A DNA stretch of 40,677 nucleotides, from NCBI GenBank assembly GCA_024643425.1, contig JAHEMY010000012.1, positions 1-40,677 of the forward strand. Reading direction: 5' to 3'. This document shows, in pieces, positions 1,667 through 10,603 of this stretch (positions within the stretch are counted from its first letter, which is position 1; every line of letters begins with the position of its first letter). Origin of the DNA: Flavobacteriaceae bacterium. GTDB taxonomy: Bacteria > Bacteroidota > Bacteroidia > Flavobacteriales > Flavobacteriaceae. The translations under genes and the position numbers were made by a program. The notes beneath the pieces are model-generated. The model had not been told where the DNA came from. It saw only the letters and a list, made by a program, of their open reading frames with translations, and ran no database searches.

Positions 1667-4516
1667 ATGCTTAAGGTAAGCACATATAACACATTAATTT
1701 TAAATAGGTTAATTGTTTGTTTAGTTTTTATTTACTCGGGATTGTTTTCAGTAAATGCCCAGCATTCCATAACGCTGGACGCCACTTTAGATAATGAAAA
1801 CAACACCCTCTTAATTCGAGAACAACTCATCTATAAAAACAGCTCTCAGGATACCCTTAAGGAGATATTTCTAACCGATTGGGCGAATAGCTTTTCGAGC
1901 AAAACAACGCCTCTAGCAAAGCGATTTGCCGAAAATTTTGAAAGCGCTTTTCACTTTGAGAACGACGAAAATAGAGGACGAACAACAATATCGTCCATAA
2001 AATCCCCTTCGGGAACGGCCTATCTTTGGGAGCGAGGAAAAGAATTGGACCTTCTAAGAATCCCATTGAAGTCAGCGCTCGCACCAGGTGCTTCGGAAAC
2101 GATGTACTTAGAATATTCAGTAAAAATTCCCGATGATAAATTTACGCGCTACGGCATAAGCAAATTTGGCGATTACAAACTTCGCTATTGGTTTATTGCA
2201 CCGGGAGTTTACGATCATGGCTGGCAGGTCTATAGCAATAAGAATACAGACGATTTCTATATGCCCCCTTCGAAGTTTGTTATCAATTTCAAATATCCAG
2301 AATCCTATAAATTATTTAGCGACCTCAATAATTCAAATGAGATCACCACTGAAGGTTATACCGTGGCTCATTTAACCGGTGAAAATCGAATGGGAGCCAC
2401 TATCTATTTAGATAAAACCCTTGGGTTTCGAAGCGTGGTTACCGATCAACTTGAATTAGTAACCGACATCAAGGACAAAAAAGTGACTCCTGCTATTAAA
2501 GCCTTACAGGTAGACCGCATTACTCGATTTCTACAAGACAAATTAGGCCCCTATCCTTTTAAAAAGTTAGTGATTAGCGATGCCGATTATAGAAATAATC
2601 CGGTCTATGGACTCAATCAGCTTCCCGACTTCATTAGTCCCTTTCCTGCAGGTTTTGAAATGGATATGGAACTGCTCAAAACCATCACCAGAAAGTATAT
2701 TGAGACTACACTGCCCATAAACCCCAGAAACGACTATTGGCTTCATGGTGCCCTGCAAATATATTTGATGAGCGAATACGTAAATACGTATTATCCCGAC
2801 ATCAAGATTATGGGAAATATGAGTGAGTTTTTCATTATTCGATGGTCGCATGCCAGCGAATTGGAATTCAATGACCAATATCCTTTTCTCTACTTAAACG
2901 TGGCAAGAAATAATTTACATCAGTCGCTTGTTACCCCAAAAGACTCCTTACTTAAATTCAATAAAAATATTGCCAACGACTATTTAGCGGGAACTGGATT
3001 ACAATATTTAAGTGATTATATAGGGAAAGAAAACTTAGAAAAATCCTTGTCAGAGTTTTACAAAAATGATTTACTAAAAACGTCGAAACCTGAAGATTTT
3101 AAAAATATTCTTGAATCAAACACTTCCCTACCTGTCGATTGGTTTTTTGACGATTACATCGGAAAAAGAACCACCATCGATTTCAAGATTCAGCAGGTAG
3201 AAACCGTGGGAGACTCGTTAAGGGTCACTGTGAAAAACACTCGAAACAATAAAATGCCGGTTTCCTTGTATGGAATCAATAAGGATGAAGTTGTTCTAAA
3301 AAAGTGGCTGGAACCTATCAATGGCTCTACTTCTATAATGATTCCGAAGGAAGGAATAAAAAAATTGGTGCTCAACCATGAAGGTGTTATTCCGGAATAC
3401 AATCGCAGAAATAATTACAAAAATGTTACCGGCCTGCTTAATAGACCTTTGCAGGTGCGACTTTTAAAGGACGTTGAGGACCCTCGCTACAATCAGATGT
3501 TTTTTATGCCTGTTTTTGGCTATAACTTATACGATGGATTTAGCCTAGGGCCAAAGCTTTACAATAAGACGTTTTTACCCAAAGGATTTCATTACCGCAT
3601 TGAACCACAATACGGATTCCGCTCAAAAACTCTTGTTGGAAAAGGGTCGCTGCTCTATACCGATTTAATCGATGGAAGTGATCTTTATTCGGTACGTTAT
3701 GGTGTTAGCGGAAATTATTTCTCCTACAATACAGATCTCTTCTATAAACGTTTTTCTCCTTTTGTGACCTTCTCATTTCGAGACCATGAAGACTTGCGAA
3801 AGAACAAACGTCATTTTATTAATTTGAGAAACGTAAACGTAAATCGAGATGAGGATCCTGAAAATATGGCCGAGGAGCCCAACTATAATGTTTACAACGC
3901 TCAGTATGTATATTCAGATAAGAACCTCATTAATTATTACAGAGCCCTGTTTGACTTTCAGCACTCAAAGAACTTTAGTAAAATTTCCACCCAATTAGAG
4001 TACCGTAAACTCTTTTTAAGCAACCGTCAATTAGACGTTCGTTTTTTTGCAGGCCTTTTTCTGCGGAATGCTACAAATCCGGAAGACGACTATTTTAGCT
4101 TTGCTTTGGACCGACCTACCGATTATCTCTTCGACTACAATTACTATGGACGAAGTGAAGATACCGGATTATTTAGTCAGCAAATTATTATCGCGGAAGG
4201 TGGTTTTAAGTCAAAATTAGAGCCCGCCTTCGCCAACGATTGGATCATGACACTTAATGCCAGTACCAATATTTGGAAATGGATCTATGCCTATGCCGAC
4301 GTTGGTTTGGTTAAAAATACGGGCTTTAACGCTAAAACGGTATACGACGCAGGAATTCGTGCAAACTTGGTCGCCGATTACTTTGAAGTATACTTCCCAC
4401 TCTATTCCAATTTAGGTTGGGAACCAGGGCTACCGGGCTACGACACTCGCGTGCGCTTTATCGTAACGCTCGATATTAAAACCCTTTTTGGACTATTCAC
4501 AAGAAAATGGTACTAA
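1667..4516 (+). CDS. M1-peptidase-like protein without zinc site, fused to C-terminal outer-membrane beta-barrel
   Basis: A 949-residue exported protein. Residues 1-31 form a signal peptide ending in VNAQ. Residues about 32-250 resemble the N-terminal beta domain of M1 (gluzincin) aminopeptidases, and about 260-520 the thermolysin-like domain, with VYGLNQLP at the place of the GAMEN loop and a DYWLHGALQIYLMSEY helix at the place of the usual WL-NEG helix. The HEXXH zinc motif is absent: the matching stretch reads TITRKYIETT. The last about 330 residues are rich in alternating aromatic strands (YRIEPQYGF, LYSVRYGVSG, FDFQHS...) and end in an aromatic tail (RKWY), as in outer-membrane barrels. 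It is probably a non-catalytic M1-fold periplasmic domain anchored in the outer membrane. Function unknown. The ATG at 1667 is the first that includes the full signal peptide. Confidence 0.7.
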   Translation: MLKVSTYNTLILNRLIVCLVFIYSGLFSVNAQHSITLDATLDNENNTLLIREQLIYKNSSQDTLKEIFLTDWANSFSSKTTPLAKRFAENFESAFHFENDENRGRTTISSIKSPSGTAYLWERGKELDLLRIPLKSALAPGASETMYLEYSVKIPDDKFTRYGISKFGDYKLRYWFIAPGVYDHGWQVYSNKNTDDFYMPPSKFVINFKYPESYKLFSDLNNSNEITTEGYTVAHLTGENRMGATIYLDKTLGFRSVVTDQLELVTDIKDKKVTPAIKALQVDRITRFLQDKLGPYPFKKLVISDADYRNNPVYGLNQLPDFISPFPAGFEMDMELLKTITRKYIETTLPINPRNDYWLHGALQIYLMSEYVNTYYPDIKIMGNMSEFFIIRWSHASELEFNDQYPFLYLNVARNNLHQSLVTPKDSLLKFNKNIANDYLAGTGLQYLSDYIGKENLEKSLSEFYKNDLLKTSKPEDFKNILESNTSLPVDWFFDDYIGKRTTIDFKIQQVETVGDSLRVTVKNTRNNKMPVSLYGINKDEVVLKKWLEPINGSTSIMIPKEGIKKLVLNHEGVIPEYNRRNNYKNVTGLLNRPLQVRLLKDVEDPRYNQMFFMPVFGYNLYDGFSLGPKLYNKTFLPKGFHYRIEPQYGFRSKTLVGKGSLLYTDLIDGSDLYSVRYGVSGNYFSYNTDLFYKRFSPFVTFSFRDHEDLRKNKRHFINLRNVNVNRDEDPENMAEEPNYNVYNAQYVYSDKNLINYYRALFDFQHSKNFSKISTQLEYRKLFLSNRQLDVRFFAGLFLRNATNPEDDYFSFALDRPTDYLFDYNYYGRSEDTGLFSQQIIIAEGGFKSKLEPAFANDWIMTLNASTNIWKWIYAYADVGLVKNTGFNAKTVYDAGIRANLVADYFEVYFPLYSNLGWEPGLPGYDTRVRFIVTLDIKTLFGLFTRKWY

Positions 4517-4517
4517 T

Positions 4518-4745
4518 ATGAACATTCTAAACAATTGGCGCATTATTATTTTTCTCTGCCTTACCCTGGGCCTTGCTCCATTTTTTCCCGAGCCACATTT
4601 GTGGGGTAAACTAAAATGGGTTGCCGGAGGCGGAGTGGGGATGACAGCCATGGATTATTTTGACTTATGCTTTCATGGGCTGCCTTTCTTTTTGCTCATT
4701 CGCAGGCTTTTTGTCGAAATACGTAATAAAAATACAGATAATTAA
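4518..4745 (+). CDS. small inner-membrane protein of unknown function
   Basis: A 75-residue protein starting one base after the stop of the M1-like gene (TAATATG), so translation is probably coupled. An in-frame start at 4488 would overlap the upstream gene and is less likely. It has two hydrophobic segments (about residues 8-24 and 40-62) separated by a glycine-rich WVAGGGVGM motif, and a charged C-terminal tail. I recognise the general look of small conserved flavobacterial membrane proteins but no named family. Its position suggests it is expressed with the barrel protein, but nothing shows a shared job. Confidence 0.65.
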   Translation: MNILNNWRIIIFLCLTLGLAPFFPEPHLWGKLKWVAGGGVGMTAMDYFDLCFHGLPFFLLIRRLFVEIRNKNTDN

Positions 4746-4787
4746 AATTTTAAGGGTTTTTACTGAGAAATCATTAAAATTTTTGCA

Positions 4788-4818
4788 TTGTCTTGCATTA
4801 CTTTTTTCGCTACTTTTG
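4788..4818 (+). promoter_or_regulatory. Bacteroidota-type promoter of the E1 gene
   Basis: TACTTTTG at 4811-4818 matches the Bacteroidota -7 consensus TAnnTTTG exactly, and TTG at 4788-4790 lies 20 bases upstream as a possible -33 element. The box ends 20 bases before the ATG at 4839, giving a short leader. The region before it is A/T-rich. Inferred from consensus only. Confidence 0.6.
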
Positions 4819-4838
4819 CGTTATAAAACCAGTACTTC

Positions 4839-7253
4839 ATGCAGACAAACCCTAAAGCAAACGAATCACTTTCATTTGAAGATTTCAAGTCGGAAGTAAT
4901 CAATGATTACACCATCGCGGTAACAAGCCGTGAATGTAGTTTGCTAGGACGTCGTGAGGTACTTACCGGAAAGGCAAAATTTGGAATTTTCGGTGATGGA
5001 AAAGAGGTGCCGCAATTAGCTTGGGCCAAAGCTTTTAAAAACGGTGATTGGCGCAGTGGTTATTATCGCGACCAAACTTTTATGATGGCATTGGATGAAC
5101 TTTCCATCGAAGGCTTTTTTGCCGGATTATATGCCCATACTTCTATTGAAGCAGACCCCATGAGTGCCGGAAGGCAAATGGGAGGTCACTTTATGACCCA
5201 TAGTTTGAATGAAGATGGTTCTTGGAAAAATCTGGCTGAGCAAAAAAATAGCAGTTCGGACATTTCCCCTACCGCCGGACAAATGCCTCGTCTTTTAGGA
5301 TTGGCGCAGGCTTCAAAAATATTCAGGAATGTATCCGAAGTTCAGCACTTATCTCAGTTTTCAAACAAAGGGAATGAGGTCGCATGGGGAACCATTGGTA
5401 ATGCAAGTACGAGTGAAGGTCTTTTCTGGGAAACGATTAACGCAGCGGGAGTTTTACAGGTCCCCATGGTGATGTGTGTTTGGGACGATGAATACGGAAT
5501 TTCTGTTCATGCAAAACATCAAACCACCAAAGAGGATATTTCAGAGGTGCTAAGTGGTTTCCAACGAACCGATGAAAAACCCGGATTCGAAATTTTTAAA
5601 GTGCAGGGATGGAACTATCCCGAACTTGTTGAAACCTTTGAGAAGGCAGGAAGATTGGCTCGTGAGGAACATGTTCCGGTACTAATTCATGTTGTTGAGC
5701 TTACCCAACCCCAAGGACATTCTACAAGTGGGTCCCATGAGCGCTACAAAAGCCCTGAAAGACTTCAATGGGAAAAGGATCACGACTGCAATCTTAAAAT
5801 GCGTACGTGGATGATTGAAAACAACATCGCCACCGAGGAAGAATTGGTTGAGTTGGAGAAATCATTGAAGAAAAAAGTGCGTGAGGCTAAAACAAAGTCT
5901 TGGACAGCATTTTTAGCACCTCATAAACAAGAACAAAAAGAGGCAATTACACTCATCGGGAATGTTGCTGAATCGAGCCCGAATAAAGTATTCATCGATA
6001 AAATTAAAGAGGATCTGGCGTCTGAGAGCGAACCGCTTCGAAGGGATGTCATCTCACGTGCCCGTAAGGCACTGCGCTATGTGGTTGGTGAATCGACTCC
6101 TGAAAAGAAACAACTTCAAGATTGGGTGAATAATTACTTCGAAATTGTTCAACCAAAATACAGTACGAACTTATACTCCAATCTGCCCAACAAAGCTACC
6201 AATGTGAAGGAAGTAGTTCCTTCCTATTCAAATGAATCGGAAGAGGTTGACGGACGTGTGATCCTTCGTGATAATTTTGATTACCTATTTTCAAAATTCC
6301 CGGAAACCTTAGTTTTTGGGGAAGATAGCGGAACCATTGGTGATGTAAATCAAGGTTTGGAAGGAATGCAAGAGAAGTACGGCGAATTCCGTGTGAGTGA
6401 TGCCGGAATCCGAGAAGCGACCATTTTAGGTCAGGGAATTGGTCTTGCGCTCCGTGGCTTACGCCCTATTGCTGAAATCCAATATTTGGACTATGTAATG
6501 TATTGCTTGCAAACTATGAGTGATGATCTTGCCACTGTGCGATACCGTACCAATGGTAAACAAAAAGCTCCATTGATTGTAAGAACCAGAGGTCATCGAT
6601 TGGAAGGAATCTGGCACAGCGGATCTCAAATGGGCGGATTGATTCACTTACTTCGCGGCATGTATATCTTGGTGCCTAGAAACATGACTAAAGCTGCCGG
6701 ATTTTACAATACACTCCTAGATAGCGATGAACCTGCATTGATTATAGAATGCCTGAATGGGTACCGACTAAAAGAAAAAATGCCGTCTAACCTAGGTGAA
6801 TTTAAAACGCCAATCGGTGTTGTAGAAACCGTTAAGGAAGGAAATGATATCACCATCATTTCTTACGGAAGTACCTTGCGAATTGTACAAGAAGTTGCGA
6901 TCGAACTGCTTCAAGTAGGAATCGATGTCGAAATAATCGATGCGCAATCATTGCTTCCTTTTGACTTAAATCACGACACGGTAAAGAGTATTCAGAAAAC
7001 CAACCGTTTGTTGGTCATCGATGAAGATGTACCCGGAGGCGCTTCAGCCTATCTAATGGAGCAAATAGTCAATGAACAAAATGCCTATCAGTATCTTGAT
7101 AGCAAGCCTCAAACCCTCACTGCAAAAGCGCATAGACCGGCATATGCAACCGACGGAGATTATTTTTCTAAACCATCGGCAGAAGATATTTTTGAAAAGG
7201 TGTATGCAATTTTTAACGAAGTAGATCCGGAAGAATATCCTGCGCTTCGCTAA
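4839..7253 (+). CDS. 2-oxoacid dehydrogenase E1 component, alpha and beta subunits fused
   Basis: An 804-residue thiamine-diphosphate enzyme. Residues about 30-400 match the E1 alpha subunit: the segment GTIGNASTSEGLFWETINAAG followed by VCVWDDEYGIS-like residues (MCVWDDEYGISVH) corresponds to the GDG...NN ThDP/Mg site. Residues about 470-800 match E1 beta (VFGEDSGTIGDVNQGLEGMQEKYG, RVSDAGIREATILGQGIGLALRGLRPIAE, LLVIDEDVPGGASAYL). E1 decarboxylates a 2-oxoacid and passes the acyl group to the lipoyl E2; fused E1 of this kind is common in Flavobacteriaceae and usually assigned to branched-chain 2-oxoacids, which feed iso-fatty-acid synthesis. Substrate cannot be read from sequence. E2 and E3 are not adjacent. 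The gene has its own promoter box 20 bases upstream of the ATG. In the ThDP motif the usual GD is GN, a divergence within the motif. Confidence 0.88.
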   Translation: MQTNPKANESLSFEDFKSEVINDYTIAVTSRECSLLGRREVLTGKAKFGIFGDGKEVPQLAWAKAFKNGDWRSGYYRDQTFMMALDELSIEGFFAGLYAHTSIEADPMSAGRQMGGHFMTHSLNEDGSWKNLAEQKNSSSDISPTAGQMPRLLGLAQASKIFRNVSEVQHLSQFSNKGNEVAWGTIGNASTSEGLFWETINAAGVLQVPMVMCVWDDEYGISVHAKHQTTKEDISEVLSGFQRTDEKPGFEIFKVQGWNYPELVETFEKAGRLAREEHVPVLIHVVELTQPQGHSTSGSHERYKSPERLQWEKDHDCNLKMRTWMIENNIATEEELVELEKSLKKKVREAKTKSWTAFLAPHKQEQKEAITLIGNVAESSPNKVFIDKIKEDLASESEPLRRDVISRARKALRYVVGESTPEKKQLQDWVNNYFEIVQPKYSTNLYSNLPNKATNVKEVVPSYSNESEEVDGRVILRDNFDYLFSKFPETLVFGEDSGTIGDVNQGLEGMQEKYGEFRVSDAGIREATILGQGIGLALRGLRPIAEIQYLDYVMYCLQTMSDDLATVRYRTNGKQKAPLIVRTRGHRLEGIWHSGSQMGGLIHLLRGMYILVPRNMTKAAGFYNTLLDSDEPALIIECLNGYRLKEKMPSNLGEFKTPIGVVETVKEGNDITIISYGSTLRIVQEVAIELLQVGIDVEIIDAQSLLPFDLNHDTVKSIQKTNRLLVIDEDVPGGASAYLMEQIVNEQNAYQYLDSKPQTLTAKAHRPAYATDGDYFSKPSAEDIFEKVYAIFNEVDPEEYPALR

Positions 7254-7286
7254 TTTTTTTTCAAAAAAAACCTAGAATTCAACATT

Positions 7287-7313
7287 TTGTAAGAAATTAT
7301 TGCGATATTTATC
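7287..7313 (+). promoter_or_regulatory. candidate promoter for the asnB leader RNA
   Basis: TTTTG ends at 7289 and, 16 bases on, TATTTATC (7306-7313) is a partial match to TAnnTTTG. A start near 7319 would place the leader-peptide ATG about 18 bases into the RNA. The -7 match is imperfect (mismatches at the sixth and last bases), so confidence is low; its main support is that a promoter is needed here if the leader peptide is real. Confidence 0.3.
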
Positions 7314-7336
7314 ATTCAACATTGAAATCACAAGGA

Positions 7337-7387
7337 ATGTTACTATCTGTTTTTAATAATAATAATAATAATAACGGAAACCCGTAA
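7337..7387 (+). CDS. poly-asparagine leader peptide of asnB (attenuator)
   Basis: A 16-codon frame, ATG at 7337, TAA at 7385-7387, reads MLLSVFNNNNNNNGNP. Codons 7-13 are AAT six times then AAC (7355-7375), with another Asn codon AAC at 7379-7381, so 8 of 16 residues are asparagine. It lies 86 bases before asnB and directly upstream of a mutually exclusive pair of hairpins. The design is that of amino-acid leader peptides such as those of the his and thr operons: lack of charged Asn-tRNA would stall the ribosome on the run and leave the antiterminator strand free, while translation to the stop would cover it. There is no proper Shine-Dalgarno (AAGGA lies too close), which is normal in this phylum. 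The main alternative is a chance AAT microsatellite. Confidence 0.72.
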   Translation: MLLSVFNNNNNNNGNP

Positions 7388-7389
7388 CA

Positions 7390-7424
7390 GAAACTTGTAC
7401 CCTATACCGAACCCGTCAAGTTTC
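7390..7424 (+). promoter_or_regulatory. antiterminator hairpin of the asnB leader
   Basis: GAAACTTG (7390-7397) is perfectly complementary to CAAGTTTC (7417-7424), an 8-bp stem with a 19-base loop. The 3' arm overlaps the last part of the terminator's 5' arm and its loop (7410-7425), so the two structures cannot coexist. The 5' arm begins 3 bases after the leader peptide's stop codon, where a ribosome terminating there would mask it. Confidence 0.62.
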
Positions 7425-7443
7425 AAATTTGACGGGTTTTTTT
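7410..7443 (+). terminator. intrinsic terminator between leader peptide and asnB (attenuator terminator)
   Basis: AACCCGTCAA (7410-7419) pairs with TTGACGGGTT (7429-7438); the stem continues with G-T and two A-T pairs to a TCA loop, and is followed by a run of seven T (7437-7443). It is a strong rho-independent terminator 30 bases before the asnB start. It may also end E1 transcription, but its overlap with the antiterminator and the poly-Asn frame points to attenuation of asnB. Confidence 0.85.
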
Positions 7444-7472
7444 ATTGATTAAAAATTTAAAACAAAAATGAT

Positions 7473-9143
7473 ATGTGTGGAATTGTATGTGCTTTTGACC
7501 TGAAACAACCCTCCGAAATATTACGGCCCCAATTATTGACCATGGCGAAGTGTATCCGTCATCGAGGTCCCGATTGGAGCGGTATTTACGACCATCCTAA
7601 AACAATCATGGCACACGAGCGCCTTGCTATTGTAGATCCTACATCCGGAAAACAACCGCTACTTTCGGAAGATAAAAACCTAGTGCTTGCCGCCAACGGC
7701 GAAATCTATAACCATGCTGAACTCCGCAAACAGTTTGAAGGCAGCTATAAATTTCAAACCAAAAGTGATTGCGAAGTGATCCTGGCTTTGTATCAGAAGA
7801 AAGGCGCAGATTTTTTGGACGACCTTAATGGTATCTTCGGATTCGCACTTTACGATGTGGAGAACGATGCGTATCTTATTGCCAGAGATCATATGGGAAT
7901 TATCCCGTTATATATGGGCTGGGACCAAAATGGGACCTTTTATATTGCATCCGAATTAAAAGCATTGGAAGGAGTTTGCACCAAAATCGAATTATTCCCA
8001 CCGGGACATTACCTCCACAGCAAAGAGGGTACATTGAAGAAATGGTATACCCGCGATTGGATGGACTTTGAGAATGTCAAGGATAACAAAACATCGATTA
8101 AAGAATTACGAGAAGCTTTGGATGCAGCGGTGCATCGACAATTAATGAGTGATGTTCCCTATGGGGTTTTATTATCCGGAGGATTGGACAGTTCGATTAC
8201 TTCGGCACTGGCTAAAAAGTACGCTGATAAACGTATTGAAAGTGGAGATACCGAAGGCGCTTGGTGGCCTCAATTACACTCCTTTGCAGTGGGACTTGAA
8301 GGATCTCCTGATTTGGCTGCTGCTCAAAAGGTTGCCAATCATTTAGGAACTGTTCATCACGAAATAAAGTTTACCATCCAAGAAGGAATTGACGCACTTC
8401 GTGATGTAATTTATCAACTAGAAACCTATGATATTACCACGATACGAGCTTCCACACCGATGTATTTAATGGCTAGGGCTATAAAGGCAATGGGAATTAA
8501 AATGGTGCTTTCGGGAGAGGGAAGCGATGAAATTTTTGGTGGGTACCTCTATTTTCATAAAGCTCCTAATGCCGAAGAGTTTCATAAAGAAACCGTACGA
8601 AAATTAGACAAATTACATCAGTATGATTGTTTACGAGCCAACAAATCGCTGGCTGCTTGGGGTATTGAAGGACGGGTTCCTTTTTTAGATAAAGAGTTTA
8701 TGGATGTAGCGATGCGCTTAAATCCTAGCGACAAGATGATTACTCCCGAACGAATGGAAAAATGGGTCTTAAGAAAAGCCTTCGAAGACATGCTTCCTGA
8801 AAGCGTGGCATGGCGACAAAAAGAACAATTTAGCGATGGCGTAGGATATAGCTGGATTGACACCTTAAAAGAAATGGTTAATGCTGAAATTACCAACGAG
8901 CAAATGGAAAATGCGAAGTATCGTTTTCCACTGCAAACCCCTTCTTCAAAAGAAGAATTCTATTACCGAAGTATTTTTGAAGAACATTTTCCCAGCGACA
9001 CAGCAGCCTTAAGTGTCCCTAGTGTGCCAAGCGTAGCATGCAGCAGTCCCGTGGCATTAGAATGGGACGAGAGTTTTAAAAACATGAACGATCCCAGCGG
9101 TCGCGCGGTCGCTAAAGTCCATTCAGATGCATATAAAAAATAG
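7473..9143 (+). CDS. asnB: asparagine synthetase B (glutamine-hydrolysing)
   Basis: A 556-residue cytoplasmic enzyme that makes asparagine from aspartate, glutamine and ATP. The start is fixed by the catalytic N-terminal cysteine: MCGIVCAF, with Cys2 as the glutaminase nucleophile; the ATG five bases earlier is out of frame. The N-terminal class-II glutaminase domain (about 1-190, with RHRGPDWSG, NGEIYNH and the SDCEV motif) is followed by the ATP-pyrophosphatase synthetase domain with the PP-loop LLSGGLDSSI and SGEGSDEIFGGY. Length and the C-terminal PSVACSSPVALEWDESFK segment match the Escherichia coli AsnB type closely. It is preceded by a poly-Asn leader with terminator/antiterminator, suggesting regulation by asparaginyl-tRNA supply, and followed by a hairpin terminator. 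Confidence 0.97.
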   Translation: MCGIVCAFDLKQPSEILRPQLLTMAKCIRHRGPDWSGIYDHPKTIMAHERLAIVDPTSGKQPLLSEDKNLVLAANGEIYNHAELRKQFEGSYKFQTKSDCEVILALYQKKGADFLDDLNGIFGFALYDVENDAYLIARDHMGIIPLYMGWDQNGTFYIASELKALEGVCTKIELFPPGHYLHSKEGTLKKWYTRDWMDFENVKDNKTSIKELREALDAAVHRQLMSDVPYGVLLSGGLDSSITSALAKKYADKRIESGDTEGAWWPQLHSFAVGLEGSPDLAAAQKVANHLGTVHHEIKFTIQEGIDALRDVIYQLETYDITTIRASTPMYLMARAIKAMGIKMVLSGEGSDEIFGGYLYFHKAPNAEEFHKETVRKLDKLHQYDCLRANKSLAAWGIEGRVPFLDKEFMDVAMRLNPSDKMITPERMEKWVLRKAFEDMLPESVAWRQKEQFSDGVGYSWIDTLKEMVNAEITNEQMENAKYRFPLQTPSSKEEFYYRSIFEEHFPSDTAALSVPSVPSVACSSPVALEWDESFKNMNDPSGRAVAKVHSDAYKK

Positions 9144-9182
9144 GTGTCGAATACATAAATAATTTTATTTCCAACAGTAGTC

Positions 9183-9226
9183 AAAAAAAATGCCCGGTTC
9201 TTTCCACTTATAGAAACCGGGCATTT
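9183..9226. terminator. bidirectional terminator between asnB and DoxX-like gene
   Basis: AAATGCCCGGTT (9188-9199) and AACCGGGCATTT (9215-9226) form a 12-bp perfect stem with a 15-base loop between convergent genes. On the - strand it is followed by a long T run (complement of A 9183-9190), so it works best for the DoxX-like gene; on the + strand the T run is short. Confidence 0.85.
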
Positions 9227-9249
9227 CGCTTAACGCTTTTTCAATTTAA

Positions 9250-9630
9250 TTAATCAAACAATTCACTGTATTTTTCTTTTCGAGATAAAATCAATGCCAT
9301 ATTAATCATTGCCACCAGCAAGGCTGGCCAAAGTTCATTCAAGTCTCCATTAATGATACTGAACATCAAAAATGCTATAGATAATGGAGCTAATACTAGG
9401 TAAATAACCGTTTTCCATTTATTTAATACGAGAAACAGTCCTACAATAATTTCAAATATGTAAAGGAATGGTAGGTATCCTGCAACAGCATCTATAAAAT
9501 CTTGAGCATCCTCATTCATTGCCCCATAATCAGAAGGAACAAAATGAAAAAACTTATTGAGTGCATACACAATTAGAAAAATGCCTAAAAAGATGCGGAG
9601 AAATCGAAAGGTTGGTCTGGACTTTTCCAT
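9250..9630 (-). CDS. DoxX-like four-helix membrane protein
   Basis: A 126-residue inner-membrane protein with four hydrophobic segments (about residues 9-28, 47-67, 72-92, 97-114) and short loops, the layout of DoxX-like proteins. The motif LRIFLGIFLIVYALNKF in helix 1 is typical of the flavobacterial DoxX-like group. The biochemical role of this group is not established; relatives are linked to quinone/terminal oxidase and thiol stress functions. It is a single-gene unit between two terminators/gaps; about 130 bases separate it from the menB stop upstream. Confidence 0.7.
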   Translation of the reverse strand: MEKSRPTFRFLRIFLGIFLIVYALNKFFHFVPSDYGAMNEDAQDFIDAVAGYLPFLYIFEIIVGLFLVLNKWKTVIYLVLAPLSIAFLMFSIINGDLNELWPALLVAMINMALILSRKEKYSELFD

Positions 9631-9763
9631 AAGTTGAGCGATTACGATTATTGTTTAAATGATTCTTATGGTAAAAGTATCTTATTGGGGTCGGTCGATA
9701 AATGATAAATATCATATCTTTTTGAAGCCTTTCTATTGAAGAATTCATTTAAAAAAAGCAAAA

Positions 9764-10603
9764 CTAGGGTAGCCACTTCTTCTCAAAATTGGGCTTTCGC
9801 TTTTCTAGAAATGCATCACGCCCTTCCTTTGCTTCATCGGTCATATAGGCTAAACGAGTTGCCTCTCCTGCAAAAACCTGTTGCCCAACCATTCCATCAT
9901 CGGTGAGATTCATTGCAAATTTTAACATTTTTATGGAAATTGGAGATTTTGCCAAGACTTCTTGAGCCCATTCGAATGCAGTTTGTTCCAAATCGGCATG
10001 TGGCACCACCGCATTTACCATTCCCATCTCAAAAGCTTCCTGCGCACTGTAATTTCGGCCTAAGAAAAAGATTTCCCGCGCCTTCTTCTGACCCACCATT
10101 TTTGCTAAATAAGCGCTCCCATAACCTCCATCAAAACTGGTTACATCGGCATCGGTTTGCTTAAAAATGGCGTGTTCTTTACTCGCTAAGGTCATATCAC
10201 AAACCACATGCAAACTATGCCCTCCTCCTACTGCCCAGCCGGGAACTACGGCAATAACTGCCTTTGGCATAAACCGGATTAATCGTTGAACTTCAAGGAT
10301 GTTCAGACGGTGGTAACCATCTTCACCCACATAGCCTTGTTGACCGCGAGCACTTTGATCTCCTCCACTACAAAAGCTATAAACGCCATCTTTTGGTGAA
10401 GGCCCTTCAGCAGATAAAAGAACAACTCCTATGGATGTATCCTCCTGAGCATTGTGAAAGGCATCGAGCAACTCGCTCGTAGTTTTCGGTCTAAATGCAT
10501 TTCGCACTTCAGGTCGATTGAAGGCAATTCGCGCAACACCATCACACTTTTTATAGGTGATATCGCTATATTCTTTAACGGTTTTCCAATTAGGTTGATG
10601 CAT
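9764..10603 (-). CDS. menB: 1,4-dihydroxy-2-naphthoyl-CoA synthase (MenB)
   Basis: A 279-residue crotonase-fold enzyme that closes the second ring in menaquinone synthesis, converting o-succinylbenzoyl-CoA to dihydroxynaphthoyl-CoA. The signatures are the oxyanion-hole segments SFCSGGDQSARG (about residue 76) and VPGWAVGGGHSLHVVCDMT, the TDADVTSFDGGYGS loop that is specific for MenB, and the C-terminal KRKPNFEKKWLP. Length matches the family. A TATCTTTG promoter box sits 18 bases upstream of the ATG. It is separated from menD/menF/menI by four genes, two on the opposite strand. Confidence 0.97.
   Translation of the reverse strand: MHQPNWKTVKEYSDITYKKCDGVARIAFNRPEVRNAFRPKTTSELLDAFHNAQEDTSIGVVLLSAEGPSPKDGVYSFCSGGDQSARGQQGYVGEDGYHRLNILEVQRLIRFMPKAVIAVVPGWAVGGGHSLHVVCDMTLASKEHAIFKQTDADVTSFDGGYGSAYLAKMVGQKKAREIFFLGRNYSAQEAFEMGMVNAVVPHADLEQTAFEWAQEVLAKSPISIKMLKFAMNLTDDGMVGQQVFAGEATRLAYMTDEAKEGRDAFLEKRKPNFEKKWLP

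Follow-up and report, generated by a model that had tools for sequence, protein, structure and literature searches.

The his operon of Enterobacteria is controlled by an attenuator whose leader peptide, HisL, contains seven His codons. Closer to the organism studied here, the main text of a study on Flavobacterium psychrophilum presents strong clues that operons for amino-acid biosynthesis are preceded by leader-peptide attenuators, and names pheA and hisG among the genes with conserved 5′ elements (PMC9723704), and that of a study on Bacteroides thetaiotaomicron describes leader-like short frames in long 5′ untranslated regions (PMC7366714). Neither asnB nor asparagine was found in these two main texts; for the former, Table S7 lay outside the search and asnA was not looked for. 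Here we analyzed a stretch of 40,677 nucleotides (nt) from a Flavobacteriaceae bacterium (contig JAHEMY010000012.1, forward strand; hereafter the window), in which a short reading frame rich in asparagine (Asn) codons and an intrinsic terminator lie directly upstream of asnB, the gene of asparagine synthase B. Comparison with related loci suggests that this leader is a ribosome-mediated transcription attenuator that would sense charged Asn-tRNA and control asnB, a reading to which we give a probability of about 0.84. Because relatives keep the arrangement, the cell probably senses asparagine through translation of the leader, i.e. it probably measures its asparagine supply by the speed of ribosomes on a tiny leader gene.

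An initial annotation of the window had described a poly-Asn frame of 16 codons, eight of them for Asn and seven consecutive, and direct reading agrees with it exactly (Table 1). The frame opens with ATG (7337-7339), has 16 sense codons and ends with TAA (7385-7387); with 8/16 codons for Asn it has the run of cognate codons that characterizes leader-peptide attenuators. The seven consecutive codons are six AAT and one AAC, and the eighth, an AAC, follows after one Gly codon. Elsewhere in the window's genome, at least five consecutive AAY codons occur at just two more places, both within long reading frames. From relatives and the window we gathered 55 leaders, seven of which were dropped because they duplicate another over the whole span between start codon and T-tract, leaving 48 distinct leaders of 11-19 codons with 3-10 Asn codons (Asn 44% overall; start codon GTG in one of them). 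Between the first and the last Asn codon these leaders hold 235 AAT and 87 AAC (322 Asn codons) but only 2 AAA and no AAG, whereas the asnB genes behind these 48 leaders have more AAR than AAY (1661 versus 683), and both AAT and AAC are present in 42/48. The mixture of AAT and AAC and the near-absence of Lys codons indicate that the Asn run is a selected protein code and not a drifting AAT repeat. A free AAT microsatellite, which the initial annotation had named as a possible undoing of its proposal, was rejected on the same counts (42/48 mixed; 322 Asn versus 2 Lys codons) as far as codon identity is concerned, while run length does vary. The final sense codon is Pro in 35 leaders, Thr in 12 and Arg in one.

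Behind the stop codon follow the arms of two alternative hairpins. GAAACTTG (arm 2), which begins 2 nt past the stop, and CAAGTTTC (arm 3) are perfect complements, and arm 3 also belongs to the 5′ arm and loop edge of the terminator, whose stem pairs 7409-7422 with 7426-7439. The complementarity and the overlap, both proposed before, are borne out by sequence and fold, and so is the strong intrinsic terminator, for which we find 14 pairs and a start one base earlier than first annotated. As in known leader-peptide attenuators, the terminator stands between leader frame and structural gene and shares an arm with an alternative antiterminator. In the minimum-energy fold of the window, segment 1 can pair with arm 2 and with GTAACA (7384-7389). 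The fold of the leader RNA is better than all of 200 shuffles (z = -4.4); terminator-like sites as such are not above shuffles in 4000-10000 (3 versus a shuffle mean of 6.2), and the one of the leader has 14 pairs. The gene 3′ of the terminator was confirmed as asnB by its family model, and it starts 29 nt beyond the T-tract. Across the 48 leaders arm 2 begins 2 nt past the stop in 45 and 2-5 nt past it in all, while the distance from stop to asnB varies from 73 to 214 nt.

Table 1. Features of the asnB leader region in the window
Feature	Position	Strand	Basis
TATTTATC, -31 to -24 from leader start; possible -7 promoter element	7306..7313	+	alignment A2
Segment 1: CAAGG (7331-7335) and TGTTAC (7338-7343); spans leader start codon	7331..7343	+	window minimum-energy fold
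Leader frame MLLSVFNNNNNNNGNP with TAA stop	7337..7387	+	sequence; frame kept in 55 leaders
Regulatory Asn codons: seven consecutive (7355-7375), Gly, eighth (7379-7381)	7355..7381	+	sequence; Asn kept through AAT/AAC changes
Segment 2 (arm 2), antiterminator 5′ arm GAAACTTG	7390..7397	+	pairs with segment 3 in 99.0% of cells
Segment 3 (arm 3), CAAGTTTC, antiterminator 3′ arm; also terminator upper 5′ arm and loop edge	7417..7424	+	
Intrinsic terminator: 14-pair stem, 3-nt loop, T-tract 7437-7443	7409..7443	+	fold, covariation
asnB, asparagine synthase B, controlled gene	7473..9143	+	NF006949, 934 bits, cut-off 499

The leader is tied to its terminator throughout the asnB loci that carry it. 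Genome contigs were scanned with the AsnB protein, and among the matches listed the best 80 loci were taken, of which 79 have at least 150 nt upstream (one, L053, with 7 nt, was left out). Leaders are present in 16/79 (L002-L010, L013, L022, L023, L028, L030, L035 and L075), and a terminator stem of at least nine pairs lies within 300 nt upstream in 16/16 of these versus 1/63 leaderless loci, the single case (L015) being an unlike AT-rich hairpin. Thus the same hairpin without an Asn-rich frame, which the initial annotation had held to count against its proposal, was not seen among the 79 loci. A motif like arm 2 has the same distribution (16/16 versus 1/63); arm 2 was partly used to recognize leaders, and the terminator was not. 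We also applied a mechanical criterion, namely an ATG frame of 8-40 codons that has four or more Asn in eight residues and a terminator close behind. The window and 14/79 other asnB loci were positive, as against none of 275 other frames of at least 150 codons from the window and these loci; L005 and L022 were negative yet align with the other leaders. When 397 genomes from the family of the window were searched with a covariance model built from 16 leaders, 39, the window's included, match at E <= 7.5e-8, all with an Asn-rich frame 73-214 nt upstream of asnB; since the model includes the leader frame, the 38 other strong family matches alone could not reveal frameless hairpins. At E <= 0.01 matches extend to 64/397 genomes, 39 of them strong, and of 32 weaker matches eleven were retrieved; the ten that were inspected comprise two Asn leaders of another gene, asnA (L131, L137), and eight hairpins without an Asn-rich frame. 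At E <= 0.001, matches of the model among 395 class genomes are limited to two, one of them the genome of the window. The leader-terminator arrangement at asnB is thereby confirmed as lying beyond chance.

Pairing is kept in both hairpins. In the alignment of the 48 distinct leaders (A2), 99.0% of cells are paired in the terminator, with two-sided changes at 6/10 counted pairs, and 99.0% in the antiterminator arms, a value that 0/500 shuffles reach. The outer antiterminator pair, which lies outside the counted terminator pairs, is AU in 27 leaders, GC in 13, GU in 5 and unpaired in 2, giving 13 cells with a two-sided change; a tree of the corresponding 48 AsnB proteins requires at least six changes at either side of this pair. 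The alignment of related asnB upstream regions, suggested earlier as a check, therefore shows the Asn frame conserved and the terminator covarying, with two-sided changes of the antiterminator at this pair only.

The weak covariance-model matches led to Asn-rich leaders upstream of asnA. The product of the reference locus L140 is the aspartate-ammonia ligase AsnA (TIGR00669, 396 bits, cut-off 293), and the folds of AsnA and AsnB are unrelated. Relatives of L140 AsnA at E <= 1e-20 were found in 22/395 class genomes (23 loci) and 29/397 family genomes (29 loci); the family model was applied to L140 only, and the others are 42-74% identical to its protein. Two of these 52 loci were dropped and 50 had enough upstream sequence. 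An Asn-rich leader frame with a terminator is present in 12/50, versus 0/1000 shuffled upstream regions, and the twelve come from five families (f1, f3, f22, f34, f50). Five asnA loci (L143, L150, L166, L193 and L194) carry two leader-terminator modules in series within 0.4 kb upstream, and at L131/L167 a second Asn-rich frame, which runs through its terminator without a stop, was left out of the counts. In 16/17 asnA modules the stretch from the Asn run to the terminator pairs with the 5′ arm and loop of the latter, and at least 97% of 300 base shuffles pair less well, the exception being the first module of L194 (136/300 shuffles as good); the modules are partly related, hence they do not represent 17 independent events. 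The second leaders of L143 and L166 end in KSPP or KSPPG before the stop, and in one asnA relative (L170, genome G060) an in-frame TAA lies within the match. The same kind of sensor at two different synthetases amounts to a natural replicate, which makes the case for Asn sensing unusually strong for one drawn from sequence alone. At that level, comparison establishes the leader, selection for Asn, mutually exclusive hairpins and the link to both asparagine synthetases.

Leader translation, stalling and the direction of control we infer from these elements. When charged Asn-tRNA is plentiful, the ribosome would reach the stop codon and cover arm 2, the terminator (3:4) would form and transcription would end before asnB. 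When it is scarce, the ribosome would stall in the Asn run and leave arm 2 free to pair with the emerging arm 3, and this 2:3 pairing would let RNA polymerase clear the T-tract before the terminator displaces the antiterminator. Peptide release is slow when Pro precedes the stop codon. Speculatively, the terminal Pro codon of 35/48 leaders would hold the finishing ribosome in place over arm 2 and thereby reduce basal read-through. In a model of attenuation, release at the stop codon is a source of basal read-through (PMC1183508), so that a ribosome held there would make the off state tighter. Taking the two synthetases together, we see an even chance that Asn leaders are a recurrent strategy of Bacteroidota, recruited separately to asnB (in one clade of the window's family) and to asnA (in at least five families), with asnA often using tandems that would multiply dynamic range and a terminal Pro that would park the ribosome on the antiterminator arm as a brake on leakage.

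Folding calculations leave room for such a switch during transcription. In nascent RNA, with the terminator 3′ arm not yet out, at least six pairs between arms 2 and 3 are present in the minimum-energy fold of 48/48 leaders, and the median energy of this stretch (-8.6 kcal/mol) is comparable to that of the terminator with four basal pairs buried (-7.1 kcal/mol). Several results nevertheless weigh against attenuation as proposed. The eight antiterminator pairs alone have a median of -3.8 kcal/mol (-6.0 to +0.7), versus -19.2 kcal/mol for the terminator, and the full-length leader folds into the terminator in 48/48 under every modelled ribosome state. The antiterminator forms in 34/48 with a ribosome in the Asn run versus 29/48 ribosome-free, a small contrast; the 0/48 obtained for a ribosome at the stop holds by construction only, since the modelled footprint covers arm 2. 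Given that the completed terminator greatly exceeds the antiterminator in stability, the switch can work only kinetically, with the choice made while RNA polymerase crosses the T-tract, and this requirement is the weakest part of the case. Of the ribosome geometry put forward in the initial annotation, the spacing of arm 2 after the stop therefore fits, whereas the equilibrium favors the terminator in every state and the modelled contrast is small.

Comparative evidence also sets limits. The leader is absent from 63/79 asnB loci. Two-sided antiterminator changes are confined to one pair, and neither the count of such pairs nor that of pair types is above shuffles; an independent-contrast test of covariation was not significant, there being too few contrasts (just three) on well-supported branches. 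The protector 1:2 hairpin over the start codon is paired in 83.7% of cells of the 48 leaders, with weak covariation that is little above shuffles. Several relatives have only 3-4 Asn codons, which would count somewhat against a uniformly strong sensor, and for an upstream promoter the sequence offers only a possible -7-like box. On balance, covariation, the Asn leaders at asnA and a His leader in the window's genome (see below) favor the attenuator interpretation, with the protector hairpin only partly kept.

Other explanations would account for parts of this arrangement. The hairpin could simply terminate transcription of the dehydrogenase gene upstream, with the AAT run arising by chance as an intergenic microsatellite: this gene ends at 7253, the terminator scan gave no other plus-strand terminator from there to 7409, and the window's own run is mostly AAT. 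However, the neighbor of the window precedes the leader in 23/48 loci and was not found there in the remaining 25, and a neighbor that varies while the leader stays means that the leader goes with asnB. In addition, AAT and AAC are mixed in 42/48 leaders with Lys almost absent, arm 2 keeps its place 2-5 nt past the stop in all 48, terminator and leader co-occur (16/16 versus 1/63), and asnA has Asn leaders too; we consider this explanation very improbable.

A translated leader might instead regulate asnB while sensing slow translation generally, through ribosome stress, drugs or weak initiation. PP motifs, which stall ribosomes without EF-P, occur in some asnA leaders and would suit such a sensor, but Asn is what the leaders of two different asparagine synthetases repeat, such leaders precede 0/275 other long frames, and both Asn codons are used, which leaves general sensing improbable, if less so than a stray terminator. 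Slightly more room, though still little, remains for Asn-specific stalling that controls asnB without a 2:3 antiterminator, by RNA polymerase coupling, Rho or another route. The weakness of the antiterminator relative to the completed terminator speaks for this possibility; against it, arm 2 is nearly invariant and changes with arm 3 at the pair outside the counted terminator pairs, and such an arm is also present in 16/17 asnA modules. Attenuation by an Asn-sensing leader through exclusive hairpins therefore remains our preferred reading.

The genome of the window gives this regulation a plausible context. Its assembly is rated 96% complete, asnB is the sole match to its protein at E <= 0.001, and there is one asnS above cut-off; gatB was not found in it, nor an asnA relative by the search with L140 AsnA (E <= 1e-20). 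With one asnB match, one asnS, no gatB and no asnA match, AsnB looks like the only route by which this genome obtains asparagine for charging tRNA. Inspection by eye of ~350 nt before asnS revealed no Asn leader. On another contig (C106, near 4577; locus L183) a His leader, MNLNQLHHHHFHTSSQAR, and a terminator precede a gene that we take to be hisG from the start of its sequence; leader attenuation thus appears to be in use in this genome. Upstream of the asnB leader, relatives show TATTTAC or TATTTG at the position of TATTTATC, and in alignment A2 T7308 is invariant and A7305 and T7309 are nearly so. Promoters of Bacteroidota have a -33/-7 consensus. This pattern occurs upstream of 7/48 leaders (shuffles 6%) and was not found in the window, so the promoter is unproven; a scan for sigma-70 promoters gave 15 matches versus 15.3 in shuffles.

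On a tree of 119 AsnB rows, the distribution of the leader needs two changes. Leader-bearing rows form one group of 53 (support 89, not starred), with a pair (L125 in genome G233 and L128 in G128) placed elsewhere on long branches, although the leader arms of this pair match the main set. Possible explanations are shared ancestry with loss, transfer of asnB together with its leader, or misplaced long branches. The terminators of L125 and L128 carry a CCGCCGGG-type stem unlike the other leaders in alignment A2. In the same tree, asnB of L055 (titled Rufibacter) and of L053 (titled Chitinophagaceae) stand among Flavobacteriaceae rows, by transfer or contig contamination.

No description of an Asn leader attenuator was found in the literature searched, which was judged mostly by title and the start of the abstract, in accord with what the initial annotation had supposed for Bacteroidota; a comparative survey of attenuation by Lopatovskaya et al. 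(2010) may include Bacteroidetes. Within that literature the kind of system appears known and the asparagine specificity undescribed. If our reading is right, asparagine becomes a further amino acid that is sensed through translation of a leader, in bacteria whose regulation is little known. According to the main text of the F. psychrophilum study, genes in this bacterial group lack Shine-Dalgarno sequences (PMC9723704). Moreover, the tandem attenuators of asnA and the Pro-stop ending bear on how attenuators set their sensitivity and leak.

Asparagine genes of Firmicutes are tied to Asn-tRNA charging at transcription termination by Asn-specific T-box elements. A T-box works by direct binding of uncharged tRNA and is independent of translation, in contrast to the asnB leader, which we read as translation-dependent. 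A T-box was rejected at these loci: across 14 related loci a tRNA in L168 was the only Rfam match to reach gathering, and in the window (7000-7800, E up to 1) just four small RNA families matched over the hairpin, far below their cut-offs. Like the his attenuator, the asnB leader places a short leader with a run of product codons, followed by mutually exclusive hairpins, before a biosynthetic gene; it differs in using Asn rather than His, in its phylum, in an arm 2 that follows the stop codon directly, in a terminator much stronger than the antiterminator and in a 1:2 hairpin that is partly conserved. The candidates reported in the main text of the F. psychrophilum study belong to the same family by name and likewise involve leader-peptide attenuation at amino-acid operons (PMC9723704). 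In the cysS leader uORFC-8-2 of Rhodobacterales, cognate codons of a leader frame likewise control read-through, and the gene behind it serves the same amino acid (PMC8632094), but there the amino acid is cysteine, the gene encodes a tRNA synthetase and the hosts are Alphaproteobacteria.

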